Source of the DNA: a virus
Reading direction: 5' to 3' (one strand)
IMG/VR virus record: IMGVR_UViG_3300047202_000087
Coordinates: 1-24,665 of that record
DNA: 24,665 nt
Positions 1-21,804 of the stretch are shown here, piece after piece (position 1 is the stretch's first letter; each line of letters starts with the position of its first letter). The translations under genes and the position numbers were made by a program. The notes under the pieces were generated by a model that was not told the origin of the DNA, did not search any database, and saw only the letters and a program-made list of their open reading frames with translations.

Positions 1-2451
1 CCCATAAATTGAATAAGTCATATAATCTACTGTTCCCGTGATAGTTCCAATTTCTATACTCTGAACTCCGCCAGATGAATAAACGGGATTGGTTGTTATG
101 TCTGTATCACTTGCCCCAGCCGTAGTGCAAGTAATTGTTTCCGAATCTGTAGTGCCTGCCAGATTTGAAAAGTTAATCACTACCGAAGTCCCGCCATCAA
201 CCATACAATGTATTTCTCTCACCACAAATCCATCTCTCTGCATTGTGGTCGGTATTCTGCCTCCGGAAACAAAATCGGGTGAAGTTGAAGCAATTCCTCC
301 GCCAGAAAGTTTAATCATTGTTGGAATTACTGCGGGTGAATTTGCGGTTGTGGTTGCGATTAAAAATTGCATATCAGTTGTATCAAAACCTATTTGTCCT
401 ATTGCATTAAAAGTTGGATTACCATTCACTATCTCAAAAGAAGTCGCTCCTCCTGCATCTATTGTTCCCAAAAGTGTCGCTAAATTAGCCCATCCAGAAT
501 TAGTAATGTTAGTTGTTGAGGCGTTGGTAACAGTTAAAATAGAAGTGGCAGTGGTGAAGTAAAGAGCCGAAGAAGTGGCAAAAGCATTAGTGCCTGCTCC
601 AAAAGGAATGTAGGCAGTTTTTAATCCGCCTGCACCCAATCCAGTTCCTCCGTAAGCAGGAAGAATTGATGTGCCGTTCCAGACTCCTGTAGTAATCGTT
701 CCAATAGAAACCAGAGAGGAAAGAGTTGTAACGGCAGGCACAACATAGTCAGTTCCCGAAACCGCAGTGGCTACCGCACCTGTTCCGGCTCCTTTTAAGA
801 TGCCAGATAAAGTTGTTGAGCCCGTGCCTCCCCAAGCCGTTAATAATGTGCTGGAAGCTATATCCCATTTGTTATTAAAAGTGTTCCAATTGGCAGCAGT
901 CAGACAACCAAAAGTTGTTCCATTGGCAGTATCGCAGTCCAAATCATCATCAGTCAGAGTAATACCATCTCCTGCGGTCAGGGTCGTGTAGTCTGAAATA
1001 TCAATATCTGTTCCGTGCCAAACACCTGTGGTTATTGTGCCAAGAGTAATGAGGGAAGAAGCTCCGGCCCAAGTGGTAGAGGCGACATCTTCTGCTGTGA
1101 GAATGGCATTAAGTTCGGCGATTGTATTTATGTCGGCATTCACAACAAAATCAGCCCCTTCTATGCCATCAAGAGTTCCTGTCCAGTCACCAGTGGCATC
1201 TAAAACTATATCTTCTCCAGAACAATTTATTCCTGTTCCTTCCGCATCGGAACAATCAAAAATTAGGATATTTGAAACAACCGCCAAACCCTCGCCTTGA
1301 AAATCGTTAATTTCGTCTCCCGAGATATAAATTTTATCAGTGGTCAATTCGGTGGTGGTGGCATTGGTCAAATTAAGCAATTCAATAATACTGTATGGAG
1401 AAGTTGTGGCGGTAGTTAAAAAGATTCCCGATTCGTTGGGAAAAGTGAAAGTTTTGTCGGAGGCGGTGAGTAAAGAAGTATCAAAGATGGCATTTCCACC
1501 ACCAACTCCATTCAAAGTAACGGAATAAGGTATATTCCACATCAAAATACTATCACCACCAGTATCAGCCAAATACCTATTATTAAAATCTATTGAAATA
1601 CCGTCGGAAGTATCAAGTATATTAGATACACTTAAATCTATTCCACCCGTTGATGCTCCCGTTGCATATAATTTAGTTGCTTTCAAATTATATGCCCCCA
1701 AATCCACATCTCCAGTCGCTCCTGTGTAAAGAACATAGTTTGGCAAGGTGGCGTATAAATTCCCATCTATGTAAGAATTGGTTGAAGAAGCGTATAAATT
1801 TCCTTGTATCCACAAAGGAGAAGAAGTGGCGGCGGAAAGTTCTCCATAAGTAGTGTCAAAAGTAAAATCAGAACCTCCGCCACCTGTGTTGTAATCCGTC
1901 CCGCAAGCAAAAACCCCGTTCGTCCAAGTAAGTTTTCCAGTAGTTGAGTTGCAAGTCTGCAATCCTCCGCCATACCAGAGAGTTGAAGAGGCGTAATTAG
2001 CCGATAAGAGGGTGGTGGAAGCGTAAGTGACATATAGGTTTGTCCCCCAGCTAGTAGTATAAGTAAATAGGCTTGATGAAGCATTTGCGAATTGTTGCAA
2101 GGCTGTCCAGGTATTAGCTGTAGTTGTTCCAAAAGCAATGCCAAAAGCCGAACCAGTAAGAGTTATGGGATAGGTGACGGTGTAGGCGGTGCCGGTGGGC
2201 CAAGTTGTTCGGCAAGTGTCGCCAGTGAGACAAAGAATATCGGTGTTTATTCTCAACCAAGCCTTTGTAGAAGTTCCAAGTTCGTATAAAGAATCGGTTT
2301 CTGGTAAAATGTTTCTTTCATATCTTATACTTTGAGTTGGTGCGCCGAAAATCTGAACAGGAGAATTATTCCAGTTATCAAAAAATCCAGCATAAGTTGT
2401 AGTTGCGATGAATAGAAGTGGTAAGATGTAAATTAGTTTTTTATAATTCAT
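1..2451 (-). CDS. Secreted fibre-like protein, partial (runs off the left edge)
   Basis: Open for 817 codons from an ATG at 2451 to the window edge without a stop, so the C-terminus is missing. Residues 1-21 look like a Sec signal peptide: two lysines, a hydrophobic core (LIYILPLLFIATT) and a TYA cleavage site before GFFDNW. Next comes a fibre-type motif (ILPETDSLYELGTSTKAW), then long Ser/Thr/Ala/Gly-rich sequence. Two copies of a stalk motif (GTITTGVWHGT near 1010-1062 and GTITTGVWNGT near 650-720) are followed by GGTG elements; the same motif recurs in the genes at 10211-11551 and 11553-12638. Fibre or adhesin function is inferred from composition and repeats. A Sec signal on a phage fibre is unusual: the protein may be displayed on the host cell rather than packed in the virion. 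No Shine-Dalgarno is visible before the start. Confidence 0.8.
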   Translation of the reverse strand, partial: MNYKKLIYILPLLFIATTTYAGFFDNWNNSPVQIFGAPTQSIRYERNILPETDSLYELGTSTKAWLRINTDILCLTGDTCRTTWPTGTAYTVTYPITLTGSAFGIAFGTTTANTWTALQQFANASSSLFTYTTSWGTNLYVTYASTTLLSANYASSTLWYGGGLQTCNSTTGKLTWTNGVFACGTDYNTGGGGSDFTFDTTYGELSAATSSPLWIQGNLYASSTNSYIDGNLYATLPNYVLYTGATGDVDLGAYNLKATKLYATGASTGGIDLSVSNILDTSDGISIDFNNRYLADTGGDSILMWNIPYSVTLNGVGGGNAIFDTSLLTASDKTFTFPNESGIFLTTATTSPYSIIELLNLTNATTTELTTDKIYISGDEINDFQGEGLAVVSNILIFDCSDAEGTGINCSGEDIVLDATGDWTGTLDGIEGADFVVNADINTIAELNAILTAEDVASTTWAGASSLITLGTITTGVWHGTDIDISDYTTLTAGDGITLTDDDLDCDTANGTTFGCLTAANWNTFNNKWDIASSTLLTAWGGTGSTTLSGILKGAGTGAVATAVSGTDYVVPAVTTLSSLVSIGTITTGVWNGTSILPAYGGTGLGAGGLKTAYIPFGAGTNAFATSSALYFTTATSILTVTNASTTNITNSGWANLATLLGTIDAGGATSFEIVNGNPTFNAIGQIGFDTTDMQFLIATTTANSPAVIPTMIKLSGGGIASTSPDFVSGGRIPTTMQRDGFVVREIHCMVDGGTSVVINFSNLAGTTDSETITCTTAGASDTDITTNPVYSSGGVQSIEIGTITGTVDYMTYSIYG

Positions 2452-2463: not shown

Positions 2464-2898
2464 TCACTTTATGTATTGAAAAATGAGTGTTGCTCCCAAT
2501 GATGGAGCACCAACTTCCGAAGTTAATGTTAATGTCAAATTGGCAGTAGTGTAATCTGTTGTCGGTCGGTAAATAATTGGAAAATCCGTTCCAGTAAGAA
2601 TGACTGCTTTGCGATGACGGGGAACAGTGAATGTTTTGTTTGAACCATCGCATTGGGCGGAAAGGTCAGCGTATCTTGTAGTATTTACCAAGCCGCCAAA
2701 AGAAAATCCTCCACCCGTTGCTCTTATTTTTCTTAATTCTTCAAGTTTTTCCTGAAGTTCATCAATAGCGTCAATTCTTAATCTTTCTTTTCCTTTAAGA
2801 ATTTCTAATTGGTCTCTTGTTTTTTCTGGTGTTATTGGAATAACTGGCGGAATTTTTGCCAAGACATCTTTGATTAAATTTATTTTTTTCCAACTCAT
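2464..2898 (-). CDS. Small virion-type protein, coiled-coil plus beta domain
   Basis: A 144-residue protein. Residues about 20-65 are charged and predicted helical (EKLEELRKIR), followed by a Gly-rich hinge (GGGFSFGG). The C-terminal half has the pattern DGSNKTFTVP ... GTDFPIIYRP ... LTLTLTSEVGAPSLGATL, which resembles a small beta domain I associate with structural or fibre-associated proteins of metagenomic phages; that match is from memory. It starts inside the stop of the HNH gene (ATGA overlap) and ends with TGA-TAA just before the long fibre at 2451, so the three are probably co-transcribed. The exact role is unknown; a tail or fibre accessory protein is most likely. Confidence 0.75.
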   Translation of the reverse strand: MSWKKINLIKDVLAKIPPVIPITPEKTRDQLEILKGKERLRIDAIDELQEKLEELRKIRATGGGFSFGGLVNTTRYADLSAQCDGSNKTFTVPRHRKAVILTGTDFPIIYRPTTDYTTANLTLTLTSEVGAPSLGATLIFQYIK

Positions 2899-3590
2899 AT
2901 ATTTATAAATTCCTCTAATTGCTCTTTTGTGTTATTATATTTCCCATAGATTTTGTGAAATTCCCAATGGCATTCATCACAAAAAGTAATTCCATTATCT
3001 ATTGCAAAACGAAGTTCAGGGAATTGTGCGAAATTTAAAATATGATGTGGATGTAAGTAAATTTTATAACCACAACCAGATTCTATTCCACATTTTTTAC
3101 AAGCAAAATTATCTCTTGTAAAAACTGATTCTCGCCAAAGACGGAATTCAAATCCATGTCTTATTCTTTTATTTTCTAGTGATATACCACCTTTCCAAAG
3201 ATAAGATTTATTTCCTTTTTGTTTTTCACTCATCTTTTTAATTACTTCTATACGAGTTTCTTTTTTATTTTTATTCCAAGGAGTAAAACCCCTTTTAAAA
3301 AGAACTCCATTTTTGGGAATAAACTTTGGCATTTTCCCTTTATGTGTTTCACTCAATTTCTTTTTGGTTTCTTCTGATAACTTTTTTCCCATACTTCCCT
3401 TACTTATATTTTTTTTCCATTCTTCTGAAAATGGGGGTCGTTTTCTTCCTCGTAATGGCGCAATTCTTTTTTCAATTAATTCAAAAGATTGTTTTTCCCC
3501 TTTGTTCCAGGCGGGTTTCCCCCTCCTTGCACTATTCTTACTTATCTTTTGTCGTATTTCTTCGGAATGTTTATGTCCTTTTTTAAACAT
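2895..3590 (-). CDS. HNH homing endonuclease with NUMOD3 repeats
   Basis: Counting from the ATG at 3590 (231 residues), the N-terminal half carries NUMOD3-type DNA-binding repeats (KGHKHSEEIRQKIS, KLSEETKKKLSETHKG) and GxxPWNK elements. The C-terminal part is an HNH nuclease: CKKCG at 164-168, HPHH at 180-183, N199 in DNGITFC, then CDEC and H208/H212, which together form a zinc-stabilised beta-beta-alpha-metal site. Such free-standing enzymes cut DNA in related genomes lacking the gene and spread by repair. The frame is open upstream to an ATG at 3629, but that would overlap the previous gene by 35 bases; the ATG at 3590 lies 4 bases after that gene's stop and opens directly with MFKKGHKHSEE. 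It sits as an insert-like unit between two virion-type genes. Nuclease identity is firm; current mobility is inferred. Confidence 0.92.
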   Translation of the reverse strand: MFKKGHKHSEEIRQKISKNSARRGKPAWNKGEKQSFELIEKRIAPLRGRKRPPFSEEWKKNISKGSMGKKLSEETKKKLSETHKGKMPKFIPKNGVLFKRGFTPWNKNKKETRIEVIKKMSEKQKGNKSYLWKGGISLENKRIRHGFEFRLWRESVFTRDNFACKKCGIESGCGYKIYLHPHHILNFAQFPELRFAIDNGITFCDECHWEFHKIYGKYNNTKEQLEEFINI

Positions 3591-3594
3591 ATTT

Positions 3595-4080
3595 TTATTC
3601 GTAAATATAAATTTCTCCAGTATCTTCAACCACCATCATATCCCCAATTATAACATTTTTGGGTGCATTATTAAAGGTATTTACACTATAAATTTTATTG
3701 CCGTCTTTGACTTCCGCCATTTTTTTATCAACTTCCGCCATCTTGGCATTACTCTTATCAACAATCTCGGCAAATCTTTCGGCGATTCTGTTCTTTGTGA
3801 AAATAGTTCCCACCTGTTGAATAGCCCACTTTTTTATATTTGAAAGAGACGAAGTGTTTTCTTCTTCTATTTTTTTAATTACCTCCTTGTGAAGATTCTG
3901 AAGTTCAGCAAGAGTGTTAGTGGCTTGCTGGGTTTTGGCGTCGATTTTTCCTATAAGTTTTTTCTCAATTTCAAGTATTTGTTTTATTGCCGCCTGAAAA
4001 GCGTCAAGAAAGTCCTTTTTGCTTAAAGATTCATTCATTAACTCTAAAAACTGCTTTAATTTTTTATCCACTTCTTGCAT
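3595..4080 (-). CDS. Coiled-coil protein, probable virion accessory
   Basis: 161 residues. Residues 1-130 are largely charged heptad-like helix (QEVDKKLKQFLELMNE, LEIEKKLIGKIDAK, NLHKEVIKKIEEE, KMAEVDKKMAEVKDG). The last 30 residues become beta-like (KNVIIGDMMVVEDTGEIYIYE). No catalytic motif is seen. It lies between the large ejection-type protein and the HNH gene, and its sequence pattern (helical stalk ending in a short beta tip) fits a tail or fibre-attachment component, but that is inference. A 121-base gap (4081-4201) separates it from the upstream gene, and no Shine-Dalgarno precedes the start. Confidence 0.7.
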   Translation of the reverse strand: MQEVDKKLKQFLELMNESLSKKDFLDAFQAAIKQILEIEKKLIGKIDAKTQQATNTLAELQNLHKEVIKKIEEENTSSLSNIKKWAIQQVGTIFTKNRIAERFAEIVDKSNAKMAEVDKKMAEVKDGNKIYSVNTFNNAPKNVIIGDMMVVEDTGEIYIYE

Positions 4081-4201: not shown

Positions 4202-7126
4202 TCACCGCAACTCCAAATATTTATTAAAAACTTCTCTGGTCATTAAACCCGAACTTTTCAGTTCTGATAATTTTACTTTTAATTCTTCGCCTTGTAATCC
4301 TTCAGTCAAACCGATAACCATTCCTACTCTCGCATTAGTTTTTGATTTATCCACGAAGTTATCAATATATTTTGCTTTTTCGTCATCGGGGAGTTTTTGA
4401 TATTCTGGACTCTTTATAAGATTTGAAAGTTTTGAATTTATAATCTCACCAGCCTTTTTCCAAAGTTGAGTGTTTTGTTCAGAGGTCAGCGAGACATATC
4501 CCCTTTTATCTCCCAACAGGGTGGGTGAAACCTGAAACCCCGCGTCCCACAGTCTGCGAAACTCCTGAACAAGAGGAGTAGACTGTGCTGGGGATGGCCT
4601 TGTGGGATCTGCCATTATTTCTAATGGATTACCAACGGTTTCTTTTTCTTCTCCCAGAACAGTTACTTGTGGTTCAAGTGTTTCCCTTACGCCAGGAATT
4701 CTTGCCTGAAACTTTTCAAATATCTCATTTGCTCTTCTTTCTGTCGTGTCAGTTGCCCTTCCTATATCGGCAATAATTGTTGGAATAGATGAAGCTAAAG
4801 TGCTTCCAGCCACACTTTGAGCAGAACGAGCAGGGTCGGATATAGTATCTATAAAATTGCTCACTCCAGTTAAAAATGTTTGTTGCGAGAATGACTGTGA
4901 AGCACCGGCAAGGGTTTTAGTTATCGCTTCGGTAGGACTTCCAGATTCAGAAAAGTTCTTTTGGATATATCCTCCTATAAGTAAGACATTTCCTACCGGT
5001 CCCGCAATCTGAACTTGCCGCCATTTTTTAGAAATCGGGTCATAAATTGCATTGGGAATCTTGCCCTCTAATTCCCAAAGTTTTTGTTCTTTTTCTCCAG
5101 TTGGCCGGGCCAAAGTCATCATCCCTTCGTTAAAAAGATAAGCACCCAAACCAAGTGCCGCAGTTCCGGTCAAAGCCCTGCCTATTCCTTGAGAAAAAAG
5201 TCGTTGGTCAAATCTACCCTTACCGATATTTTCGGCAATGGTTTTTACTATTCCCACCGGAGAGTAATTTATTATCTGCATCGCCACTGAAGATGGAGTT
5301 CTTCCAAATGGAACAACTACCTCTCCAAGTCCTCCACCTAATTTTTGGATTGACCTTGCTGCCGCCCCCAATGCTGTTTTATTCTGAAATACTGCCGTCT
5401 CTGCATCCATAGAAGCATATTTAATTATTTCTTCAGTTGGATTTTGAATAAGTTCATCTATAAACTTTTGGGCTTCTACGCCTTTCAATCCTTTATTTAT
5501 TGCCGCAACTTTTGCCTGTTCATACATAGAACGAAGTTTTGCGGCATAATAAAAAGGCTGGTCTTCAGTTCCCATTATGTGAAAAATAGTATCGGTATAT
5601 GTTTGAAGGCCTTGAGCCAATTTTCCTTTGCCAAAATTTATTCTTTTGTAATCCAATTTTGTCCCTATATTTCTTTCATCAAATCCAGTAGTAAGATATT
5701 GCCAACCCTTTTCCACTCCTCCTTTTGCTCCGCCAAATAATCCTCTTAAACTAAATGCCTTTGTTCTTTTGCCTGTAAATATAGAAAAGACTTTATCAAC
5801 TATTGTGGCAGGGATGTCTTTGGCGATTTCAGTTCCTGCGTGAGAAACATTGGCAAGAATATTTAATCCACTTGTTTTTATTCCCGTAAGAAGTCCTGCT
5901 TTCCAAACAGCAATAATTTTTTTGAACAAAGGAGTAGGAACTAAATCAGAAATGTGGTTCTGAAGTTTTTGGAATCGCATTGCTTTTTCTGTTCCCTCGG
6001 CCATCTCATTGATTGTTTTCATTTCATTTTCAATGTATTTTACTTGTTCTCCAGTAATTTCGGGTATTTTCTTTTGAAGTCCCAAAATTCCACCTTTTGT
6101 TTTTACAATTTCTTCATTGAATTTTTGTATCTCTCTGGCGGCAAACCTAACTTGTCCTTCAGGGGTTAATCTTCCAAGAATAGAAGCCGCTTGAACAGAC
6201 CGTCCTTGTTCTGTAAGATTCCGCGCCATTGTGTTTCCGAGTTCCGCTGCTTTGTCATATAGAGCATTTTTCACCGTTTCGTCTGTGGCTTTTGCCGCTT
6301 CGTCAGAATAATGTTTTAGAAGTTCCGCACCGGTTGCCACCGCATCATCGTTAATTCCCGTCAATGCCATTTTCTCGGCGGTTTTTATATCATCTTTGAT
6401 TAAGTTCTTGGCTCTTATCGCTAATCTGTCCGTGCTTCTTGGAACATATTGTCCGGCAACTTTTAGTTCAGGCAATTCTTCTTTAATGCTTGAAATAAAT
6501 CCTCGTTCTGTCCACTTAAATCCTTTGGGTGCAACTTTTGCCGATTGTTTCAAAATCGTTTCTACTTCTTTGGGATTGGTTATTTTCACTAAAGATTTAG
6601 CTAAATCATCAATAATTTCTACAGGAATATTCTTAACATTCTTTACAATCAAATTTTTGATTGCGACTTCTGAAGTTTCTTTGGCTATTTTTTCAACAAG
6701 TTGTTTTTTGCCAAACCCGCCAGGATAAATATCTATTGCAGTCAAAGCAAGTCCTATTGGCAATCCGTATTTTTGGGCTGTTTCTTTTTCTGCTCCAAAA
6801 GCACCAAGAGTTTCTTCTCCATATTCTTTAAATCCTGTGATTGGTTTTTCCCCGAAGATAATTTTTTCCCAAGTAGTTTTTGGAGTTATTGTTACTTCCG
6901 GCTTTCCCGTAATTACTTTTCCAATTTCCATTCCTACCCTTGCTCCGCCACGAGTAAATGCCTGCGCCACATCCTTAAAAAAGTTCCCTGCTCCTATTAT
7001 TGTTTGTTTGGGAGAAACTTCCACTTGTCGTTCTTTTGTCTGTTTTGAATAATCAAAACTTCCCAAAGTCGGCATTTGGCTAACCACTCCTTTTGTTTTT
7101 TCTAATATGTCCTGGAAAAAGTTCAT
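4202..7126 (-). CDS. Large ejection-type internal virion protein (LPD38-like region)
   Basis: 974 residues, the largest complete gene in the window. The N-terminal 250 residues are mixed hydrophobic and charged, with a Gly-rich segment at about 45-60. Residues about 520-615 contain DQPFYYAAKL, AETAVFQN and VVPFGRTPSSVAMQIINYSP, a pattern I recognise from large polyvalent-protein-associated regions (LPD38 type) in big internal proteins of short-tailed phages. A hydrophobic stretch follows at about 651-666. The C-terminus is helical and acidic. No lysozyme motif or polymerase motif is visible. It overlaps the preceding coiled-coil gene by ATGA. In podoviruses such proteins leave the head with the DNA and help it cross the envelope; this role is inferred from size, position and the motif. 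A tape measure is the alternative but is less likely without tail-tube genes. Confidence 0.75.
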   Translation of the reverse strand: MNFFQDILEKTKGVVSQMPTLGSFDYSKQTKERQVEVSPKQTIIGAGNFFKDVAQAFTRGGARVGMEIGKVITGKPEVTITPKTTWEKIIFGEKPITGFKEYGEETLGAFGAEKETAQKYGLPIGLALTAIDIYPGGFGKKQLVEKIAKETSEVAIKNLIVKNVKNIPVEIIDDLAKSLVKITNPKEVETILKQSAKVAPKGFKWTERGFISSIKEELPELKVAGQYVPRSTDRLAIRAKNLIKDDIKTAEKMALTGINDDAVATGAELLKHYSDEAAKATDETVKNALYDKAAELGNTMARNLTEQGRSVQAASILGRLTPEGQVRFAAREIQKFNEEIVKTKGGILGLQKKIPEITGEQVKYIENEMKTINEMAEGTEKAMRFQKLQNHISDLVPTPLFKKIIAVWKAGLLTGIKTSGLNILANVSHAGTEIAKDIPATIVDKVFSIFTGKRTKAFSLRGLFGGAKGGVEKGWQYLTTGFDERNIGTKLDYKRINFGKGKLAQGLQTYTDTIFHIMGTEDQPFYYAAKLRSMYEQAKVAAINKGLKGVEAQKFIDELIQNPTEEIIKYASMDAETAVFQNKTALGAAARSIQKLGGGLGEVVVPFGRTPSSVAMQIINYSPVGIVKTIAENIGKGRFDQRLFSQGIGRALTGTAALGLGAYLFNEGMMTLARPTGEKEQKLWELEGKIPNAIYDPISKKWRQVQIAGPVGNVLLIGGYIQKNFSESGSPTEAITKTLAGASQSFSQQTFLTGVSNFIDTISDPARSAQSVAGSTLASSIPTIIADIGRATDTTERRANEIFEKFQARIPGVRETLEPQVTVLGEEKETVGNPLEIMADPTRPSPAQSTPLVQEFRRLWDAGFQVSPTLLGDKRGYVSLTSEQNTQLWKKAGEIINSKLSNLIKSPEYQKLPDDEKAKYIDNFVDKSKTNARVGMVIGLTEGLQGEELKVKLSELKSSGLMTREVFNKYLELR

Positions 7127-8732: not shown

Positions 8733-10214
8733 TCAATAAACATCCTTATCTAATAATTCATATCGGAACTTTAATCCTGTTATTTCTGCACCTCCTGTTG
8801 ATTCAATTCTAAATTGTATTTCCTTGAATTCTGGAAGTGTTCCACTGGAATTGTTTATCGCCGAATGAGAAATTGAATCATTCGTATCGTGGGTAAAAAT
8901 ATTCGTCCAAGTCGTTCCCTCATCCTTACGGTATTCCAAAATTATCTGTCCACTTGCCGAAAGTGGAGAAGTCATAACCGTTACCCCTATCAGTTTCTTT
9001 TTTACGGAACTGTCCCCGCCCGAATACAAAATCGTTTCTATGGCGGCTTCCTGAAATGTGCCTGTTATTAAAGTCTGTAGTGCGACCGACACCGAATGGG
9101 CAATAAACCAAAATTCGGTTACTTCATAAATTCCCTTTATTTGTTGTCCCGCCGTAACACCTGTTATATTTTGATTAACTGTTAATACAATTTGACCATT
9201 GATGACTTGCACCTTGAAAATAAAATAATAAGTAACGGCATCTTTTGTTGTTATTAGTGTCGTTGGAAAATAAAAGGCATTGTTGGCACTAACAGAATTA
9301 CTTTGTTGAATAAGGTCGGTTTGAATGCTGTTAAAATAACCACTGGTGGCATCATCGCTTATTTTTTTCTCTAAAATAGTTCCACCAGAATAATATTTCA
9401 CCACAAGAGCATTGTTATATCCCCCAAATCCTGAAATGCTATTTACAAATTGGGTAATAAATATTCCATTGTTGTCATAACCGATATGCTTTGCCTCGCC
9501 CATTCCCAAATTTATTTTCGCCGAAATTGTGGAAAGCGAACTATCTCGGTCCCACAGGAACAAAATAGTATCGGCCGTTCCCGCCTGTATGGGTGAACAC
9601 AAAATAGCAAGATAATCGCCGTAAGGTGCACCTCCGATAATTTTCAGATTACTTGGAAGAGTAAGAACACTGGCAGACCAAGTAACATTATTTAGTTTAT
9701 GCACCACATTATCCTGAAAGAAATAAGCGCAATCATCTGCGGGATGATGTATGGGTTGAGCGACATTAGTATAGGCAATTGCCTGATATTCATCAGTAAA
9801 AGTAGGAGTTGTTACCAAATCAAAAGAAGATAATTTTGTTCCTCCTTGCCAGCAATATGCAATATCTTTATAAACAAAAAACACATTTGGGGCCACAACA
9901 CCCACTGTTCCCTCTCCATTTGCAGGAGCAGTCCAATCAGTTACAGGCACGGTGCTTTTGAATATCTTTGGCTTTCCTGTGGCAGTCTGCCCGAGTCCAT
10001 AAACCGCATATCCACTTGTTTCATTTTTTGCGTAAATAAACCTTGAGATTTTTTCGCTTGCGTCAGTCAGGGTCAAATAAGTCCTTTTGGGAATGAGTTT
10101 TTTATCCGTGATGTTGAAGTGATAGGAAAGAGCGACAACATTGGCGATTTCCGCCCTGATGTTGTTAGTCATACCCCCCGAAAAATCCGTAATTTTTTGT
10201 TCAATGGTTTTCAT
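8733..10214 (-). CDS. Phage tail/head-type protein with IEQKITDFSGGM N-terminus
   Basis: 493 residues. It begins IEQKITDFSGGMTNNIR, a motif typical of tail or stopper proteins in short-tailed and some siphophages. Repeating beta-rich blocks follow (SRFIYAKNETSGYAVYGLG, NVFFVYKDIAYCWQGGTK, PYGDYLAILCSP, KHIGYDNNGIFITQF) that look like a beta-propeller or YncE-like fold, and the C-terminus is a beta domain (RFRIESTGGAEITGLKFRYEL). The first 150 residues align by eye with the N-terminus of the upstream gene at 10211-11551 (FEQKITNFSGGM ... HFNI.D ... Y.LG ... QG.T.L). ATGA overlap couples the two. The start has AGGA close by (ATAGGAAATG). It is probably a tail-nozzle or fibre-attachment protein; this is inferred from fold and position. 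Confidence 0.72.
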   Translation of the reverse strand: MKTIEQKITDFSGGMTNNIRAEIANVVALSYHFNITDKKLIPKRTYLTLTDASEKISRFIYAKNETSGYAVYGLGQTATGKPKIFKSTVPVTDWTAPANGEGTVGVVAPNVFFVYKDIAYCWQGGTKLSSFDLVTTPTFTDEYQAIAYTNVAQPIHHPADDCAYFFQDNVVHKLNNVTWSASVLTLPSNLKIIGGAPYGDYLAILCSPIQAGTADTILFLWDRDSSLSTISAKINLGMGEAKHIGYDNNGIFITQFVNSISGFGGYNNALVVKYYSGGTILEKKISDDATSGYFNSIQTDLIQQSNSVSANNAFYFPTTLITTKDAVTYYFIFKVQVINGQIVLTVNQNITGVTAGQQIKGIYEVTEFWFIAHSVSVALQTLITGTFQEAAIETILYSGGDSSVKKKLIGVTVMTSPLSASGQIILEYRKDEGTTWTNIFTHDTNDSISHSAINNSSGTLPEFKEIQFRIESTGGAEITGLKFRYELLDKDVY

Positions 10215-11551
10215 TTCCTATACAAAAGCACCTTTAATCCTTTAATGCTTTGGGCATCTCCAGCATTCGCCTCTGACATTTTAAAAGTGATGTAAAACTG
10301 GTTTGCGGTATTCACCGTTGCCGCGCCAGTGTAATAAGTCACAGTGCTCTGATATACGTGCGATTCTCCAAAATAAGTTTGCACGGAATTGGAGTCGTTG
10401 TTAAATAAATCTATTGCGAGTCTATTAAGAGGATAAATTCCCGGCAACACCGAAACCAAAGTTGTCGTGGCCGCTCCAGTTCCTATCTGCGCGTCTATGT
10501 AACCATTACCATTACCCCCGCTTTTGCTTCCTAGCATCAAAATTTCCAACGAATCATCTGTTCCCATAGTCCCTGCGGGAACAACAATTGTAACTGTTGT
10601 TGTCCCTGTGCCTGAAGTTGTGTAAACCGTTCCGTCTGCTAAAAGCACTCTCGGATTTTCGTAATTCCAAGAAAGAGAACCTGAGTTATTTGTCATCAGA
10701 CAGCTTGAACTTGCATTCTGTGCGGTGGGAAAAGTGTAAGCAACTGTGTTCAAGGTAATAGGATGCGCCGCAGTTGAAGAAGCAGTCAACCCTGCAGTAG
10801 AAGTGGTCGCCATAAAGGCTGTAGCGCTCCAGGTGTGCGTTCCTGTCCAGGCATAGTTTTCAGAAAGGCTAACCGCAGAAGTAGTCCAAGTGGAAGCCGC
10901 ACCCGCCCCTGCGGAAGTAAGAAACTGCCCATTTGTTCCCCATCCCGTAACCGTTTTAAACCCACTTGTTGTATTTCCTAATAAGACTTGGTTTATGGAA
11001 AGACTTGTGGAAGCATTGCCTCCTTTGGCCCAAGTAAGGGCTGTGCCGCTCCAAGTTCCAGAGGTTATAGTTCCCACAGTAGCCACAGTATTAGTAATTG
11101 TTCCTGCGAGTGTACATTTAGCGAGTTGAGTTGTACCTTGAAAAAACCAAAAAGAACCTTGCCATTCTATAAAAGCCCCAAGAATTCTAGCTCCGTTACC
11201 TTCTCCTTCTGCCGTTGCTATATTATTTCCAGCCGAAGAAAGCCAATTCCCAGTAGTCGGATCTGTCTTTTTAACTACTTTTGGATAACTAGTTGCCACT
11301 ACCTTGCCTAAAGCATAAAGTTTCCCATCAGAACCAAGTTGAAAATTTCTTATATCATATAGTTTTGCGTCTGTTGAAGAAACATTGGTTGCGGTATCTA
11401 CTTCAGTTGAACGATAAGGAGTTAGTTTATATGGATTATCAAATATATTAAAATGTTTAATTAAAGAACCAACATTATTAAGTGGCTGACGAGAATCATC
11501 CGACATTCCTCCTGAGAAATTAGTTATTTTTTGTTCAAATATTTGTCCCAT
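10211..11551 (-). CDS. Chimeric tail fibre: attachment head plus fibre stalk and tip
   Basis: 446 residues in three parts. Residues 1-150 resemble the N-terminus of the next gene (FEQKITNFSGGM, KHFNIFDN, YALGKV, FFQGTTQLAKC). Residues about 155-298 resemble the stalk of the gene at 11553-12638 (GTITSGTWSGTAL, NQVLLGN, TVTGWGTNGQFLTSAG, YAWTGTHTW, GLTASSTAAHPITLN). The last 150 residues form a different beta-rich tip (TTTVTIVVPAGTMGTDDSLEILMLG, ending IKGLKVLLYRK). The head probably anchors it to the tail and the tip probably contacts the host. It sits between the two genes it resembles and overlaps the downstream one by ATGA. Codons are more GC-rich than in the 11553-12638 stalk, so a recent DNA copy is unlikely. 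Fibre function is inferred. Confidence 0.75.
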   Translation of the reverse strand: MGQIFEQKITNFSGGMSDDSRQPLNNVGSLIKHFNIFDNPYKLTPYRSTEVDTATNVSSTDAKLYDIRNFQLGSDGKLYALGKVVATSYPKVVKKTDPTTGNWLSSAGNNIATAEGEGNGARILGAFIEWQGSFWFFQGTTQLAKCTLAGTITNTVATVGTITSGTWSGTALTWAKGGNASTSLSINQVLLGNTTSGFKTVTGWGTNGQFLTSAGAGAASTWTTSAVSLSENYAWTGTHTWSATAFMATTSTAGLTASSTAAHPITLNTVAYTFPTAQNASSSCLMTNNSGSLSWNYENPRVLLADGTVYTTSGTGTTTVTIVVPAGTMGTDDSLEILMLGSKSGGNGNGYIDAQIGTGAATTTLVSVLPGIYPLNRLAIDLFNNDSNSVQTYFGESHVYQSTVTYYTGAATVNTANQFYITFKMSEANAGDAQSIKGLKVLLYRK

Positions 11552-11552
11552 T

Positions 11553-12638
11553 TTATTTAACTGTAACTACACTTCCATCATAACCTCTATTTATTCTAAT
11601 TTTAAGGTTAGAAACAATTGCGTCAGCGGTAATAGATTTGGCCTTTATTTGAAGTAAATCTCCAACAACTATGCCTGAAATATTTTCAGTAAAAGTGCTT
11701 GGACTTGTTACAGTCATATAACGATAAGTTCCAACTGCTACGTTGTTTTTATATATCCCAGAAGAACAAGGATTAGCAGATCCACAAGACATAGTATAAA
11801 TAACAGTAACTGTTCCAGATCCATTCATTAATATTTCTTTTACAGTAGTTGTTGCTCCTCCTCCAGCTGAACTACTATGTTCATCTTCAGAGCTTATAAG
11901 TAAACTATCTCCAGCTGCATAAGTTAAAGCCATATAAATCGTATACCACTTTAAATTTCCAGAAGCGTCATTAATTAACGCAGTCGAACTAGCTCCTTGT
12001 GTTGATGGAGTATTAAAAGAAATTCCATTTAATGTCAAAGGAGCAGCCGCAGTCGAAGAAGCCACTAATCCCTTAGTTGTTGTAGTTGATGTGAAGTTAT
12101 GAAGTCCTGTCCAAGTATAATCAATTGCTGTATCAACTGCCGATGTCTGCCAAGTTGGAGCAGCCACTCCTCCATTAGAAGTAAGGAATTGTCCAGTAGT
12201 TCCGTAGCCACTAACTGTTTTCATTAAACTTGTTCCATTCCCTAATAAAACTTGATTAGAAGATAAAGTCGTTGATCCTGTGCCTCCGTTAGTAACCGGA
12301 ACAGCAGTTCCATTCCAAATTCCTGATGTAATTGTTCCAATAGTTGCCAAACTAGAAGCTGAGGTTAAAGCGTTTGCAGTTGTAAGTCCTGCTAATGTAG
12401 TAATTAAAGGTAATGTAGTCGTTGATATTTCTATCTTCCCAGTATTTAAAGCCGAGAAGTTATTATTTATAGTTGTCCTTGAAGAAGAAAGTGTGTCAGA
12501 ACCAGCAATAGTTATTATAGTCGTTCCAAATTTTTGTGTTGGGGTTTCCAAATATGATAAAGGAAGATATTTATAAGCCCCGACAAAAGTTAATGCCGTG
12601 ATTATAGTTGAAATTATTATATTAAAAAGAATATTCAT
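11553..12638 (-). CDS. Membrane-anchored fibre-like protein
   Basis: 361 residues. Residues 1-25 are hydrophobic (MNILFNIIISTIITALTFVGAY), an uncleaved anchor or signal peptide. Residues 40-95 carry a fibre-start pattern (GSDTLSSSRTTINNNFSALN). Residues 95-235 form the stalk (LATIGTITSGIWNGTAV, GGTGSTTLSSNQVLLGNGTS, YGTTGQFLTSNGG, GLVASSTAAAPLTLN), shared with the next gene and, in part, with the long fibre at the left edge. The C-terminal 125 residues are a unique beta-rich tip with two cysteines (CGSANPC). The start overlaps the stop of the 49-residue gene (ATGA). Codons are markedly A/T-rich compared with the neighbouring fibre gene. A surface-exposed binding protein is likely; whether it is in the virion or on the host cell is open. 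Confidence 0.75.
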   Translation of the reverse strand: MNILFNIIISTIITALTFVGAYKYLPLSYLETPTQKFGTTIITIAGSDTLSSSRTTINNNFSALNTGKIEISTTTLPLITTLAGLTTANALTSASSLATIGTITSGIWNGTAVPVTNGGTGSTTLSSNQVLLGNGTSLMKTVSGYGTTGQFLTSNGGVAAPTWQTSAVDTAIDYTWTGLHNFTSTTTTKGLVASSTAAAPLTLNGISFNTPSTQGASSTALINDASGNLKWYTIYMALTYAAGDSLLISSEDEHSSSAGGGATTTVKEILMNGSGTVTVIYTMSCGSANPCSSGIYKNNVAVGTYRYMTVTSPSTFTENISGIVVGDLLQIKAKSITADAIVSNLKIRINRGYDGSVVTVK

Positions 12639-12784
12639 GTTTTACTTTCAGGGGTTATTGTTAAAGTATTTTTAGATTCTTCTTTAATCACAAGGCCTGG
12701 CACATCCCAAGTGCCCTCAGCTTCATCCCAAGTGTAATCTGCTTCATCCCAAGTAATTCCAGATGGTTTGTCCTCGATAGACAT
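12635..12784 (-). CDS. Small protein with three TWD repeats
   Basis: 49 residues, from ATG at 12784 (one base after the upstream stop) to a TGA overlapping the next start. The core is three tandem seven-residue units, TWDEADY, TWDEAEG and TWDVPGL, followed by a KEESKNTLTITPES tail. Short Trp-Asp repeat proteins of this kind turn up beside tail and fibre genes in phages, with no established function that I know of. Its fit on both sides with stop and start codons supports a real gene. Confidence 0.7.
   Translation of the reverse strand: MSIEDKPSGITWDEADYTWDEAEGTWDVPGLVIKEESKNTLTITPESKT
12692..12754 (-). repeat. 21-bp tandem repeat, three copies, within the TWD gene
   Basis: Three consecutive 21-base units, each beginning ACTTGGGATG on the minus strand. 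Units one and two share ACTTGGGATGAAGC and differ near the end; unit three is more diverged. The unit is a multiple of three, so the reading frame is kept. Confidence 0.85.
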
Positions 12785-12785
12785 T

Positions 12786-13550
12786 TTATTGATATGACGT
12801 AGATTTCATTGTTAATTTTTTCTTGTGGTCTTTATCCCTTTGTTCATAATGGTCTAAAATTGCCTGTTTTAAATCCAGAATTATTTGTTTATAAAGAACC
12901 ACACGATCTTTTTTGTAAGACATACAAAAAGGAAGAGCCATCATATAAGCCAAAATTTCATGATGAACGGCAAAACCGGGTTCTGTTGTATCTTCGGTAG
13001 TTCCGGTTGCAACTGTAAATAAAGTAGGGTTTCTTTTAAACCAAACCCTTAAACCATTAGTAAGAGTGCAATAAGTCGCCCCAGGGGAAGGATAAAGGCG
13101 GAATGAATCATCTGTAATCAAATCATAATATTCTGGCATTCCAGTTTTAGGGGTTCCATCTGTATCTAAACCAAAATATTCATCAGGAGAATTATCGCCT
13201 AAATCTGCTTGGTCAAGTGATTTTAATTTCCTATAAGTAATACCATCCAAATCCAAAACATCCATTTCCTCTATTTGTAGATAATCTGAAGCGAAAGTAT
13301 ATATTTCTTGTCCTTCAACTAAAGTTCCCTTTCCTCTTGGTTGGTCTGTTATATTGGAATCGTCAAACTGCCAAAAGCCATCGGCATTTATAAGCCAATT
13401 GACAACTTCTTTATAAGAGATATTTGCACGCCTTGTCTTAACTTCACGGGGATAGCTTGTATTGTCAGAATCACAAAGACTATCTACCTCATCACAAATT
13501 CCTTGTTTGTAAGTCGCGTCTGTCGAAGTTGGTGAACCAAAAAATTGCAT
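12786..13550 (-). CDS. Head-tail adaptor-like protein
   Basis: 254 residues. Features seen: an N-terminal helical segment with YKEVVNWLINADGFWQFDDSN, then GTLVEGQEIYTFASDYLQIEEMDVLDLDG, RLYPSP and a C-terminal helical segment (HHEILAYMMALPFCMSYKKD ... LKQAILDHYEQRD). This order (helix, 'GQ..Y..P/ASDYLQIEEV' strand pair, long C-terminal helices) matches phage adaptor proteins that bind under the portal, such as the T7 gp11 and P22 gp4 types. Position directly after the capsid gene agrees. It would connect portal to tail and close the head exit. Family assignment is from pattern and synteny only. Confidence 0.62.
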   Translation of the reverse strand: MQFFGSPTSTDATYKQGICDEVDSLCDSDNTSYPREVKTRRANISYKEVVNWLINADGFWQFDDSNITDQPRGKGTLVEGQEIYTFASDYLQIEEMDVLDLDGITYRKLKSLDQADLGDNSPDEYFGLDTDGTPKTGMPEYYDLITDDSFRLYPSPGATYCTLTNGLRVWFKRNPTLFTVATGTTEDTTEPGFAVHHEILAYMMALPFCMSYKKDRVVLYKQIILDLKQAILDHYEQRDKDHKKKLTMKSTSYQ

Positions 13551-13552
13551 AA

Positions 13553-13718
13553 TTAAAGAGGGTTATTAAACTTATAAATTTTTTTAATATGTCCTAAAAA
13601 TTTTTCTTTTGTCATTGCTTTTTTCATATAATTACAGATTGGACAACAGGGTGCAGAATTTTCTTTAATGTTTTTGATTATATTCGTGATGATATTTTTT
13701 TGATTCTTCGTTATACAT
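13553..13718 (-). pseudogene. Frameshifted small CCPIC protein
   Basis: From ATG at 13718 the frame reads MYNEESKKYHHEYNQKH and stops. One base out of phase, a second frame then reads IKENSAPCCPICNYMKK and on to FLGHIKKIYKFNNPL, ending at 13553 two bases before the next gene's ATG. Joined, they give a natural-looking protein of about 54 residues with a Cys-x2-Cys knuckle. The break falls at a run of five A residues (minus strand); four A residues would restore one frame. Either a sequencing or assembly indel, a genuine pseudogene, or programmed frameshifting could explain it. The total length of 166 bases is one more than a multiple of three, as expected for one extra base. Confidence 0.55.
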
Positions 13719-13752
13719 AAAAATTAGTTATCTTAATTTCTAATCTTTGGGC

Positions 13753-13779
13753 TGGGGAGGAGAGATAACCTCCTCCCCA
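13753..13779 (-). terminator. Strong hairpin downstream of the capsid gene
   Basis: A perfect 10-bp stem, TGGGGAGGAG and CTCCTCCCCA on the minus strand, with a 7-base loop, 38 bases after the capsid stop. It is GC-rich in an AT-rich region. There is no T run directly after it, so it is not a classic intrinsic terminator. It may be a partial terminator or a 3' end stabiliser that raises capsid mRNA relative to downstream genes. Confidence 0.55.
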
Positions 13780-13816
13780 CTTTCGTCCGTCGAACCCATA
13801 CAAAACTTTATCCCTG

Positions 13817-14692
13817 TCAATTTACCTGGATGTCAAAAAGCAGTGTTGATTTGAAATTATACGGTGCTTTCAATCCGTAATCGATACGGGAAGCGATACC
13901 AACAGAATATAAGTTTCCTGTGGTAACAGGGAAAGGAACAATATCAACTTTTCCATAAGTGGTATTCAAGATACCAATTTTGTAAAGTTTCTTCACTCCT
14001 CCCACAATGTGTCCAGCGGTATGCTTATTTGACCTGTAGTGTTCTACTCCAAGATATCTCATTCCCACTTTTATTCCGTTAATCAGAATATCATCGGCTG
14101 TGTTGTAGCCATTGCTTCTTGCCCATGATTCAAGTTTCTCGAAGTCTGGTGCTCTCCAGATAATGAATGTTCCATTTCTGTCAGCCAAGACATCTCCGTT
14201 TGCTTCGGTAATCTCTCTCTTCATCGCTCCGACAATATCATCTATATTATCTGTGCCAACGGTGATGTTCACACTATCCGTAGCATTAGCGGTGACTACG
14301 CCATTGTCGAAGTCAGCCAAATTGGCATAATCTCCAAGAAATGCGTATTCTACTTGCTCATTGAGTTCCTGTCCGAATATATCGGCATAGGTCATTTGCT
14401 GTTCGTAAGAACATTGAGCCAAGTCAGCAAGGTCAATAGTGGTTGCTACTTTAAAGGGAGTAGCAATGTCAATATATTCATTCGTAAGAGCATTGTCACT
14501 CCAAGTGAAATAAGTATCTCTGGCAAGGGAAGCAGCAGCAGGAGTAGTGGCCATATACGGGATATTAACTCTCTTAGAATTCGTCATGACTACATCACAA
14601 ACCATTTTCCAATTCGTTTCGTAGGCAAGCCGTTCCTGCAACTTGATTTCCCACTCTTCGCGGTAAACTCCATCTCCAATTGTATTACTCAT
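13817..14692 (-). CDS. Major capsid protein
   Basis: 291 residues, directly downstream of a scaffold-like gene and followed by an adaptor-like gene, the usual place for the coat protein. Sequence features fit an HK97-fold coat: an N-terminal helical arm (EWEIKLQERLAYETNWKMV), a NIPYMATTPAAASLARD strand region, a long helix (YADIFGQELNEQVEYAFLGDYA), a domain with DNIDDIVGAMKREITEANGDVLADRNGTFIIWRAPDF shape (helix then strand, as in the A domain), and a beta-rich end (GKVDIVPFPVTTGNLYSVGIASRIDYGLKAP). The combination of 'FIIW/PDFEKLESW' and the C-terminal 'NLYSVGI..RIDYGLKAPY' is typical of such coats. No Shine-Dalgarno is visible at this highly expressed gene (CTAAAATG). It ends with TGA. Assignment rests on fold pattern and synteny. 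Confidence 0.85.
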   Translation of the reverse strand: MSNTIGDGVYREEWEIKLQERLAYETNWKMVCDVVMTNSKRVNIPYMATTPAAASLARDTYFTWSDNALTNEYIDIATPFKVATTIDLADLAQCSYEQQMTYADIFGQELNEQVEYAFLGDYANLADFDNGVVTANATDSVNITVGTDNIDDIVGAMKREITEANGDVLADRNGTFIIWRAPDFEKLESWARSNGYNTADDILINGIKVGMRYLGVEHYRSNKHTAGHIVGGVKKLYKIGILNTTYGKVDIVPFPVTTGNLYSVGIASRIDYGLKAPYNFKSTLLFDIQVN

Positions 14693-16930: not shown

Positions 16931-18730
16931 TTATGCCATTGCTCCTGCTGGTAATAATTCCTGCCCCACTGGTTGCGGGGGTGGAGCGAATTGAAACTTC
17001 TCTATTCCTGAAAAATCCATAGGAGACAATCCTGAATATTCAATAATTTCATTCCATGCCTTTGCCATTCCCGGCATCTGCATAATCTGCATAAACCCCT
17101 GGGGGTTGGAAAATACAAAACGGAAAATATTGACTATCTTTTCTGTCATGGCACCTAGATTTTTCTGTTTTCCCACAATATTGATACTTATTCTTACGGG
17201 TAGACCTTTCATTTCATCCTTAAGGATTTTAATAAAGTGTTTGTTTCCTTTCTTCTTAAAATTGTCCCTGGATTGCTGTTCAAACACCTGCACCATTTCA
17301 GGAGTCGGAGCAAGGCCGTCATTATCCAAAATATAGTTTATCTTAAAATTGTTCGTTTCAATTATCGCCAAATTATCGCCAATCTTTTGCAATTCCTCCA
17401 AATCAAGCGAAGCGAGAAATTCCTGACCCTTGACAATCTCTTTGACGATATAGGGAATAATCCAATCCCGATAAATTTCCTCCACGGATTTAGCATATTT
17501 CCCCTTTCGGTATTCGTGAAGTGAAAGTCCTTGCTGAACTTGTAATTGAAGAGATGCAAACGGTGTTCCTGAAACCGGCTCTTTTCCCATAGTTGGATCA
17601 TAAGCCGAACCTGTGCTTTTAGCGTGTTCTTCCATTGCCTGTTCCCACTGCACAAAAGGAACAAGGTTTCGGGGATAAGTGTCAAGTTGCTCCACGTCTT
17701 TTCTTTCATCCACCACGAGGAACTCAAGGTTATCCATATCTTTTACTCCTGTGGGATGGCGGGCAACTATTCCCTTATCAGTAGTTTTTAAGATGATTTT
17801 AGAAGCGGCATCAAGCATTTCCTTCATCCTAATTTCGCCGTAATTCACCCAAACTTGCGGGCCAAAAAGTTCCTCTGCTCCACCCATTCCAAGTGCTCTG
17901 TTATAAAAACGATCCCTTTTGACAAACTTAATAGGAAGTTCTTTTTCTCTTTTTGCATAGAGAATCACTCCCTTGTTTCCGTTTTTTGTCCGTTTCGTAT
18001 TGTCAAGAATAATAATCTGCATTTGCAGGCTAAATTTATCATTGTCTTCGCCAAGATATCTATTGGGCAATACTCCGTGAATTTCAAAAACCTCTATGTA
18101 GTTTCCGGTAGTTCTGCTTTGCGTTCCTTGTGCATCTTTCTTCCATGCATTTGCCAAAGTAACAGCTTCTTCCAAAGTATGAGTTGCGCCATTTGCCGGT
18201 TCTCCCCATCCCTTGTCATCCATTTCCAGAAGTTCTGATGGATTATAAAAAAGTTTAATTCCTAATGGAGCGGATAAGATATCCATTTGGTCGCAAAAAG
18301 CGAGACTTTGCAAGGGAATTACTTCTAATTTCCCATTGACATTTTTGGCCAATGCTCCTCCAAAGTCTATCTTTTCTTCTTTAAGTTCATCAAAGAAAGT
18401 GTCCAAGTCGTTTTCTTTGGTAAAAACCTCATCGTGGTATTTCTTTACCAAGAACGACAGATAGTATTTATCTTTATCGTCTATGTATAAAACAATATCT
18501 TTGACATCAATATCTTCAGCTCTGTATTGCAGATTCAGTATCGGCCTTATTATGTTTTTAAAGGGCTTTTCGTCTGAGTGTTTTTTGAAGAAACGGGAAT
18601 TCTTGTAGAAAATAGTCTTCTTGATATGGTCTCGCATATTGAAATCCAAATCGTCAAGAATCGTAACAGGAAGCATATATGCAGTCTGTTCTTGCACAAC
18701 ATAATCGAAAATGTTCTGCTTTGTTTCCAT
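16931..18730 (-). CDS. Portal protein
   Basis: 599 residues. It is the ring at the head vertex through which DNA is packaged and ejected. Seen here: an N-terminal helical part (IRPILNLQYRAEDIDVKDI), an alpha/beta core with FDELKEEKIDFGGALAKNVNGKLEVIPLQSLAFCDQ (the 'G..a.k..g...v.pl..' portal signature), a ring-type helix region (YGEIRMKEMLDAASKI), SGTPFASLQLQVQQGLSLHEYRKGKYAKSVEEIYRDWI (stem and tunnel-loop helices), and a Pro-rich, disordered C-terminus (FAPPPQPVGQELLPAG). Length and order fit large portals of short-tailed phages. It lies downstream of the terminase block and upstream of scaffold and capsid. A Phe/Gln-rich C-terminal section (GFMQIMQMPGM) may be the barrel. Identification rests on the pattern and synteny. 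Confidence 0.85.
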   Translation of the reverse strand: METKQNIFDYVVQEQTAYMLPVTILDDLDFNMRDHIKKTIFYKNSRFFKKHSDEKPFKNIIRPILNLQYRAEDIDVKDIVLYIDDKDKYYLSFLVKKYHDEVFTKENDLDTFFDELKEEKIDFGGALAKNVNGKLEVIPLQSLAFCDQMDILSAPLGIKLFYNPSELLEMDDKGWGEPANGATHTLEEAVTLANAWKKDAQGTQSRTTGNYIEVFEIHGVLPNRYLGEDNDKFSLQMQIIILDNTKRTKNGNKGVILYAKREKELPIKFVKRDRFYNRALGMGGAEELFGPQVWVNYGEIRMKEMLDAASKIILKTTDKGIVARHPTGVKDMDNLEFLVVDERKDVEQLDTYPRNLVPFVQWEQAMEEHAKSTGSAYDPTMGKEPVSGTPFASLQLQVQQGLSLHEYRKGKYAKSVEEIYRDWIIPYIVKEIVKGQEFLASLDLEELQKIGDNLAIIETNNFKINYILDNDGLAPTPEMVQVFEQQSRDNFKKKGNKHFIKILKDEMKGLPVRISINIVGKQKNLGAMTEKIVNIFRFVFSNPQGFMQIMQMPGMAKAWNEIIEYSGLSPMDFSGIEKFQFAPPPQPVGQELLPAGAMA

Positions 18731-19385: not shown

Positions 19386-19581
19386 ATTTTTTTCTACAAA
19401 TCTTATGTGTCGGTTCCAAAATCATCTCTCCACTATACCTATCTTTCTTTTTCCTATAAGTTATCGCCTGTCCCTCGCTCACCCAGACTTCTTCCCCGCA
19501 AAAAGGACAGATACCGACACTTGTTCTTTCTATCACCTTGGTTCTTACATAGACTTTGCCGTCTATTATTTTAAACTTCAT
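19375..19581 (-). CDS. Small zinc-ribbon-like protein
   Basis: 68 residues. It opens with beta-type sequence (KFKIIDGKVYVRTKVIERT), then CPFCGEEVWVSEGQ, a classical Cys-x2-Cys knuckle with Gly after it, and a later Cys-Arg-Lys-Lys near the C-terminus. Only three cysteines plus a histidine (THKIC) are available, which fits a CCHC or CCCH zinc site. It overlaps the glycosyltransferase-like gene by 11 bases. A nucleic-acid-binding or protein-interaction role is inferred. Confidence 0.6.
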   Translation of the reverse strand: MKFKIIDGKVYVRTKVIERTSVGICPFCGEEVWVSEGQAITYRKKKDRYSGEMILEPTHKICRKKYAR

Positions 19582-20137
19582 AATATTTTACCATCTTTCT
19601 TATGTGGCCCAATCTTAAACTCGAATCACACCACAATTTGATTCCTGCTTCACTTAATCTCTGTCCAAAACTTATGTCTTCTCCTTGCACTATATCTCCC
19701 TCTCTGATATTACTAAAGGGATTTGAAGGAAGTTTATCATAAACTCTTTTGGATATGCCAAGGAATCCTCCTCCACAAGCCCCAATTTCATTCACTCCTT
19801 CTTTGGGCTTAACAAACTTATAATCATACTTTCCCATTTCAAAGATAGCAGGAATCATTTTCGGTTCTTTCCCTATGAGATAAATTCCTGTAACAACATC
19901 ATGGTCTTCTAAGAGTTTTTCAACCCTCGCCACTTGTTCAGGGGTAAAAACTAAATCACTGTCTATGAACAAAAGGTCTTCTGTCTTCATTCTTGCTTGC
20001 TCATAAATCCTGTTTCTGTTATCCGGTAAACTTGGCCCCTGCCAAGTAATCCATTCGTATTTGGGTAAGTTAAGAATTGATTGGACAAACTCCCAATGAA
20101 CAAAAGCATTATTATTCACAATTGTTCCTATTATCAT
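19571..20137 (-). CDS. GT-A-type glycosyltransferase-like protein
   Basis: 188 residues. It starts with a short strand (MIIGTIVNNNAF) and has RNRIYEQARMKTEDLLFIDSD: the DSD at 59-61 is the DXD motif that binds metal and nucleotide-sugar in GT-A folds. GACGGGF at 119-125 and QGEDISFGQRLSEAGIKLWCDSS (Glu-Asp at 153-154, His at 178) follow as expected for the acceptor-side loop, catalytic base and metal ligand. It is shorter than cellular GT2 enzymes, with no membrane segment, so it may be a minimal enzyme. It overlaps the TerL stop by ATGA and so is packaged with the terminase operon. Substrate is unknown: host cell-surface glycan, virion protein or DNA base are all possible. Confidence 0.75.
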   Translation of the reverse strand: MIIGTIVNNNAFVHWEFVQSILNLPKYEWITWQGPSLPDNRNRIYEQARMKTEDLLFIDSDLVFTPEQVARVEKLLEDHDVVTGIYLIGKEPKMIPAIFEMGKYDYKFVKPKEGVNEIGACGGGFLGISKRVYDKLPSNPFSNIREGDIVQGEDISFGQRLSEAGIKLWCDSSLRLGHIRKMVKYYEV

Positions 20138-21528: not shown

Positions 21529-21790
21529 TTAGTTGTTCTTCTGATAATTGTTCTTCGGTTTTAACATCTGCCCTTATATCTAATGGCGGTCTTCCTTCCA
21601 GCATCTGCCAAGCCAAATCTCTATTTTCTTTGACAAAATGCTCTACAAACGCCTGCATATCTTCAGGGTGTTCTTCAAGCCATTCTCTTACCCGTTCTTT
21701 TATTGTCTTTCCTTTTGGTCTTCCTGCCGGATTTCTAATCTCTCCTTTCTTGGCTGGCCTTAGATTTTTCAAACTCTTTTTGTTAATCAT
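21467..21790 (-). CDS. terS: Terminase small subunit-like protein
   Basis: 107 residues directly before terL. RPAKKGEIRNPAGRPKGKT at the N-terminus is the 'NP.GRPKG' motif of DUF5681-type proteins, often encoded before terminase large subunits, and gives a basic DNA-contacting arm. The rest is helical (IKERVREWLEEHPEDMQAFVEHF, LAWQMLEGRPP) with an acidic middle and a basic C-terminus. It overlaps terL by 62 bases in another frame. The small subunit would recognise the packaging site and load the large subunit. The exact family is inferred from motif and position. Confidence 0.75.
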   Translation of the reverse strand: MINKKSLKNLRPAKKGEIRNPAGRPKGKTIKERVREWLEEHPEDMQAFVEHFVKENRDLAWQMLEGRPPLDIRADVKTEEQLSEEQLNELLKRREKKSTPIRKISSS

Positions 21791-21804
21791 AACTATTTCT
21801 TATC

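Follow-up and report, generated by a model that had tools for sequence, protein, structure and literature searches.

In a 24.7-kb virus contig from a short-tailed phage (hereafter the window, meaning the whole stretch of DNA that was analysed), the 446-codon gene P0002 (10211–11551, minus strand) joins the N-terminal third of a podovirus tail nozzle to the stalk of a tail fibre, followed by a tip of its own. We conclude that this fusion gene is probably the joint of a phage-phage recombination, i.e., the scar of a block of tail genes that was spliced in from another phage. The evidence comprises the homologies of the two parts, the phylogeny of the head, a step in composition at the seam, an island of divergent codon usage that ends at this seam, and the absence of the fusion from related loci.

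Tail genes of the window and of its relatives

The window contains genes for a large terminase (20134–21528), a portal (16931–18730; assigned by position and size rather than by a curated family match), and a major head protein (13817–14692), as well as a tail region on the minus strand. The latter begins with a tail adaptor (12786–13550; SU10_adaptor, PF24175, E = 1.2e-8), which is 60% identical to the adaptor of the related locus L133 and 31% identical to that of G002. The adaptor is followed by (i) a small 49-aa gene with WDEA repeats (12638–12784; MSIEDKPSGITWDEADYTWDEAEGTWD...), which had gone unmentioned in the gene set of the preliminary description and which is the counterpart of a ∼64-aa gene found between adaptor and fibre in relatives; (ii) a fibre with a hydrophobic N-terminal segment, a stalk, and its own tip (11553–12638); (iii) the fusion gene; and (iv) a tail nozzle of the P22 gp10/T7 gp12 type, with a propeller and with platform parts at both termini (8733–10214). 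The open reading frames of fibre, fusion, and nozzle are all present at these positions. The fusion starts 1 nt after the fibre, a spacing also seen in the fibre-nozzle pairs of several relatives, and its stop codon overlaps the start of the nozzle by 4 nt (ATGA), as in the fibre-nozzle overlap of L124 and, if the first start codon is used, of G002. Between the terminase and the portal lies a 188-aa protein (19571–20137), relatives of which are located between the head protein and the adaptor in L036 (two copies) and L125.

Related contigs were gathered by profile scans with the terminase, the nozzle, and the adaptor, and groups of small genomes (most of them 0.4–1.5 Mb) were also searched, which added the nozzles of G015 and G113. 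In most readable loci, the order is adaptor, usually the ∼64-aa gene, a fibre with a hydrophobic N terminus, and the nozzle; the exceptions are L036 and L152, which have no fibre between adaptor and nozzle, and L132 and L135, which have two genes between fibre and nozzle. The fusion is absent from all of the ∼20 related loci, and a second nozzle-type head occurs in the window only. Likewise, when overlapping sets of 384, 380, 297, and 4 genomes around G015 and G113 were searched for the nozzle type, these gave the two nozzles and no second fusion. One of the related terminases sits in a contig labelled Candidatus Paceibacterota, and a host among the Patescibacteria is therefore likely.

The protein at 8733–10214 had been described as a fibre, whereas its predicted structure identifies it as a podovirus tail nozzle. 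The top Foldseek matches of its AlphaFold2 model (pLDDT 83.6) were phage nozzles and tail proteins, namely those of Pa223 (E = 2e-12), GP4, P22 (gp10; E = 4e-10), and Sf6 (gp8; E = 4e-9), and VIA-align matched residues 2–491 of the model to the Pa223 nozzle (9nwi_Y) with a Z of 20.6 over 421 aligned residues. VIA-align also returned many unrelated propellers at the same Z, and we used only this full-length match to a phage nozzle. The protein thus matches the known podovirus nozzles (P22 gp10, Sf6 gp8, T7 gp12, SU10 gp17, and Pa223), with a sequence identity to solved nozzles of ∼9%; it is 64% identical to the nozzle of G002. Its gene follows downstream of the adaptor, within a cluster of portal, capsid, and adaptor genes, an order that the relatives keep. 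Pfam and PHROGs gave no family for the nozzle or the fusion; phmmer against the PDB gave no match for the nozzle and, for the fusion, chance Kelch matches only. Neither single-protein scans of viral_contigs nor tblastn against GenBank phages returned anything for the fusion or the nozzle; for the fibre, the former gave one stalk match of 30 residues (L003) and the latter one weak match of the tip.

The L036 nozzle (4781–6847) carries ∼170 extra residues in its C-terminal platform region, seemingly two domains of ∼90 aa, and a domain similar to this insert is found as a separate gene in G010 (3545–3856) and as part of a fibre in L124. An HNH-endonuclease-like protein of the window (2895–3629; recognized by eye), which is 48% identical over 111 residues to the product of a gene adjoining the L124 nozzle, is probably mobile.

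Make-up and ancestry of the fusion gene

The head of the fusion (codons 1–155; 11087–11551) is of the L124/L133 nozzle type and comprises the start of the platform and the first propeller strands; the stalk (codons 156–298; 10658–11086) is the repeat-type stalk of the fibres of this phage group; and the C-terminal tip (codons 299–446; 10211–10657) has no relative among the fetched loci. The preliminary description had likened the head to the protein at 8733–10214 and the stalk to the preceding fibre, and both parts align clearly with the respective neighbour. Fusion residues 6–155 align with nozzle residues 5–140 (∼40% identity) with a Smith-Waterman score of 157, and the first 150 residues score 150 against the nozzle, compared with a shuffle mean of 31 and a maximum of 73 in 1000 shuffles (z 21); tblastn within the genome also recovers this match (E = 1e-12). 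Fusion residues 141–342 align with fibre residues 80–287 with a score of 410, and the stalk segment (57% identity) scores 397, compared with a shuffle mean of 71 and a maximum of 111 in 1000 (z 33), which far exceeds a low-complexity background. Nozzle and fibre show no real similarity to each other (score 46). The DNA differs, as had been stated, being 51% identical over the aligned head codons and 59% identical over the stalk codons. It also holds that a head of the tail-attachment type is joined to a fibre stalk with its own tip, and that the neighbouring fibre presents the same stalk type behind a hydrophobic N terminus.

Among the group's fibres, relatives of the fusion stalk reach E = 1e-37, and the fusion thus has the repeat-type stalk common to these fibres. 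With the group's nozzles, the fusion has the first ∼155 residues in common by sequence, and a nozzle HMM matches it at positions 1–163 of 512 only; unlike a podovirus nozzle, it lacks the remainder of the propeller and the C-terminal platform.

In a tree of the heads (154 alignment columns, 20 rows), the fusion groups with the L124 and L133 nozzles (97/96), whereas the adjacent nozzle groups with that of G002 (100/98). A tree constrained to pair the fusion with the adjacent nozzle is worse by 42.6 log-likelihood units (p-AU 0.00175), and a constraint that adds G002 to this pair gives a p of 0.047 in the AU test. In the same alignment, the fusion head is 49% identical to its closest nozzle, that of L124, and 34% identical to the adjacent nozzle. 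The grouping with L124 and L133, the AU rejection, and the higher identity to L124 all indicate that the head was not copied from the adjacent nozzle, and the earlier designation of the two neighbours as parents fails on this side. L124 itself is a relative of the donor and not the donor, because the GC3 of its nozzle is 0.38, unlike that of the fusion head (0.155); the L133 nozzle, at 0.17, is as low as the fusion head.

The stalk tree is a star and gives no origin for the fusion stalk; the differing ancestry of the two parts is seen on the head side, in the rejection of sisterhood with the adjacent nozzle. Sisterhood of the fusion stalk and the neighbouring fibre stalk is neither supported nor rejected (p-AU 0.33), and the closest stalk to that of the fusion is not the one in the G002 fibre, contrary to a simple two-lineage model. 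An alignment that combined nozzle heads with stalks (A9) proved faulty and was set aside in favour of another (A10). The G002 fibre (12460–13812) has the same stalk type and a glycine-rich tip that is unlike either of the window fibres.

The seam and its proposed origin

The single best GC3 step over the fibre, the fusion, and the nozzle falls at fusion codon 156, where GC3 rises from 0.167 to 0.356 (log-likelihood ratio of 28.9, compared with a maximum of 9.2 in 500 permutations). When the fusion is taken alone, the changepoint again lies at codon 156 (0/2000 permutations), and segmentation over the entire contig also places a breakpoint here, with a low-GC3 segment that begins where the head-protein gene ends and reaches fusion codon 155. 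The step therefore falls at the head/stalk seam, as in an intragenic joint, and not at a gene boundary. In amino-acid-matched comparisons, the GC3 of the head differs from that of the stalk (z −3.7), the nozzle (z −4.5), and also the tip, but not from that of the fibre (z −0.9), whereas the stalk is close to the nozzle (z −0.2) and differs from the neighbouring fibre (z 4.7). In 16 relatives serving as a control, there is no such step between head and body of the nozzle (mean difference 0.007, sd 0.043).

Codon usage as a whole gives the same partition: adaptor, fibre, and fusion head form an island between mutually similar flanks. Their codon usage (0.097) lies beyond all 185 contiguous flank samples (maximum 0.083), whereas that of the fusion stalk and tip is near the flank mean (0.090 vs 0.088). 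The right and left flanks are 0.057 apart, as are the halves of one genome (0.03–0.10 in other genomes). The L133 fibre (9825–10988) has a significant GC3 step of its own at codon 284, beyond the stalk, which looks like a tip exchange.

Just beyond the step, fusion residues 158–164 (11060–11080) form the motif TVGTITS, which is common to the L124 nozzle and to the first strand of the fibre stalk (L124 nozzle, ITNSQGTVGTITSVAQG; fusion, ITNTVATVGTITSGTW; neighbouring fibre stalk, LATIGTITSGIW). Among 19 nozzles, an exact TVGTITS is present in L124 only, at the alignment position of the seam, and 2e-5 exact occurrences per protein are expected by chance from composition. The L133 nozzle has SATITS at this position, and the L124 codons for the motif differ from those of the fusion at most third positions.

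In the recombination that we propose, one phage would have supplied the adaptor, the small gene, the fibre, and the first ∼155 codons of a nozzle, and this incoming block would have been fused, with the frame intact, to a resident fibre at its stalk; the tip of that fibre, the resident nozzle, and the genes that lie further on would come next. The crossover may have taken place within the short TVGTITS stretch common to this nozzle type and the fibre stalk, in which case the donor nozzle would have carried the motif and the reading frame would have been preserved. An exchange between cassettes B and A, with nozzle B crossing into fibre A, would leave fibre B, a nozzle-B head on the stalk and tip of fibre A, and nozzle A; on its upstream side, the block would be delimited by another exchange, close to where the head-protein gene ends. 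A single crossover between two adaptor-fibre-nozzle cassettes would thus give the observed order of fibre, fusion, and nozzle. It also predicts that the fusion starts as a nozzle does behind a fibre (1 nt) and ends as a fibre does before a nozzle (ATGA), both of which hold. The portal, head protein, and adaptor of G002 differ from those of the window far more than those of other relatives do, so that G002 has exchanges of its own, and the discordance between the window and G002 does not by itself tell which block moved. We infer the direction of transfer as given above. Of the earlier statement that the event is old or that the pieces were acquired separately, separate acquisition is supported, whereas great age of the event is improbable, given how sharp the step in composition at the seam still is.

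The preliminary description took the order parent-chimera-parent as a sign of fibre diversification, by which a copy of the adjacent nozzle head would have been fused to a copy of the adjacent stalk and kept as a second fibre type. Both neighbours do have the relevant part, and sisterhood of the two stalks is not rejected. However, one crossover of two cassettes gives the same order, which by itself is no proof of selected fibre diversification; the AU test mostly refutes a local origin for the head, whose codon usage fits the block of fibre and adaptor and not the nozzle; and the stalk differs in codon usage from the neighbouring fibre, which together make local diversification highly improbable. 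Alternatively, the gene might not be real, the contig having been assembled by linking two phages at a short sequence common to nozzle and stalk. Such a misjoin would produce a switch of ancestry and composition at a single point on a shared motif, and the contig belongs to a metagenome-derived virus collection, with the fusion seen as one copy in one contig. We nevertheless consider it unlikely, given that both flanks are alike in codon usage with a different block in the middle, which a single misjoin of two phages would not readily give, that the shared stretch would be at most about 21–24 nt, and that the gene spacings on both sides are natural.

It is also rather improbable that the fusion is a selected fibre, in which the nozzle head piece attaches stalk and tip to the virion and which is kept for host range. 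Its open frame of 446 codons and the origin of its head in the same codon-usage block as the adaptor would suit such a role, as would the contacts of the nozzle platform with the adaptor in SU10 and T7 (PMC9509320, PMC6702177). Each platform of SU10 is in contact with two subunits of the adaptor (PMC9509320), and in T7 the platform holds the nozzle on the adaptor, with three of its nine strands coming from the N-terminal 45 residues and the others from the C-terminal part (PMC6702177). It is this C-terminal part, the bulk of the T7 platform strands, that the fusion lacks; moreover, none of the ∼20 related loci has a fusion, and AlphaFold confidence at fusion residues 1–60, in a model built from few sequences, is about 40–49, compared with 71–88 in the nozzle. 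The AlphaFold model of the fusion as a whole (mean pLDDT 43.6; no related sequences for stalk and tip) is too poor for anything beyond a weak comparison of the heads. A working adaptor-docking fibre is possible but not the simplest reading. We would likewise give little credence to a variant in which the nozzle piece docks on its own adaptor and the platform is completed by strand exchange with the resident nozzle, which would create a new fibre attachment in a single recombination step. A role as a nozzle is unlikely, most of the adaptor-binding platform being supplied by the C-terminal part, which is missing from the fusion. If the fusion is a recombination joint, as we favour, its frame may be kept open by translational coupling to the essential nozzle via the ATGA overlap, and the product may serve as a spare fibre.

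Relation to known phage mosaicism and to other fibre genes

Phage genomes are mosaics, the joints of which have usually eroded or fall between genes, and the usual exchange swaps like for like, such as a fibre tip for a fibre tip. Mosaicism within genes, through illegitimate or relaxed recombination, resembles the fusion in its sharp one-point switch of ancestry and composition with an intact frame. Here, unlike in the usual case, the partners are a nozzle gene and a fibre gene, and the hybrid is an additional gene flanked by a fibre and a nozzle that are both intact. Intragenic mosaicism being already known, a nozzle-fibre hybrid with a still sharp step in codon usage is an unusual variant of it. 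Modular tail fibres and receptor-binding proteins with exchanged modules, such as those of Klebsiella phages (PMC8262889), share with the fusion an attachment-type head, a stalk, and a variable tip, whereas the fusion head is a structurally incomplete nozzle fragment and not a known fibre anchor. No such nozzle-fibre fusion was found in a limited literature search, which is weak evidence of absence.

The significance of the seam is threefold: (i) head phylogeny, codon usage, and the shared motif place a joint between two different structural genes within a few codons; (ii) the seam shows how an extra hybrid gene can arise between two intact parent-type genes without duplication; and (iii) if the product is made and carried, a new mode of fibre attachment could originate in one step.

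The fibre between adaptor and nozzle has a hydrophobic, signal- or membrane-type N terminus in nearly all relatives, as judged by simple hydropathy (the window fibre at 11553–12638, L133, L134, L136, L137, L144–L149, L151, L153, L125, L132, and G002). Such a segment is unexpected in a virion fibre and suggests either insertion into a membrane or export to the surface of the host. A third protein of the window (1–2451; at least 817 aa, running off the contig end) likewise has a signal-like start and contains two stalk-type motifs, and its counterpart in G002 (21030–23174) ends in an apparent S74-type chaperone domain, recognized by eye.
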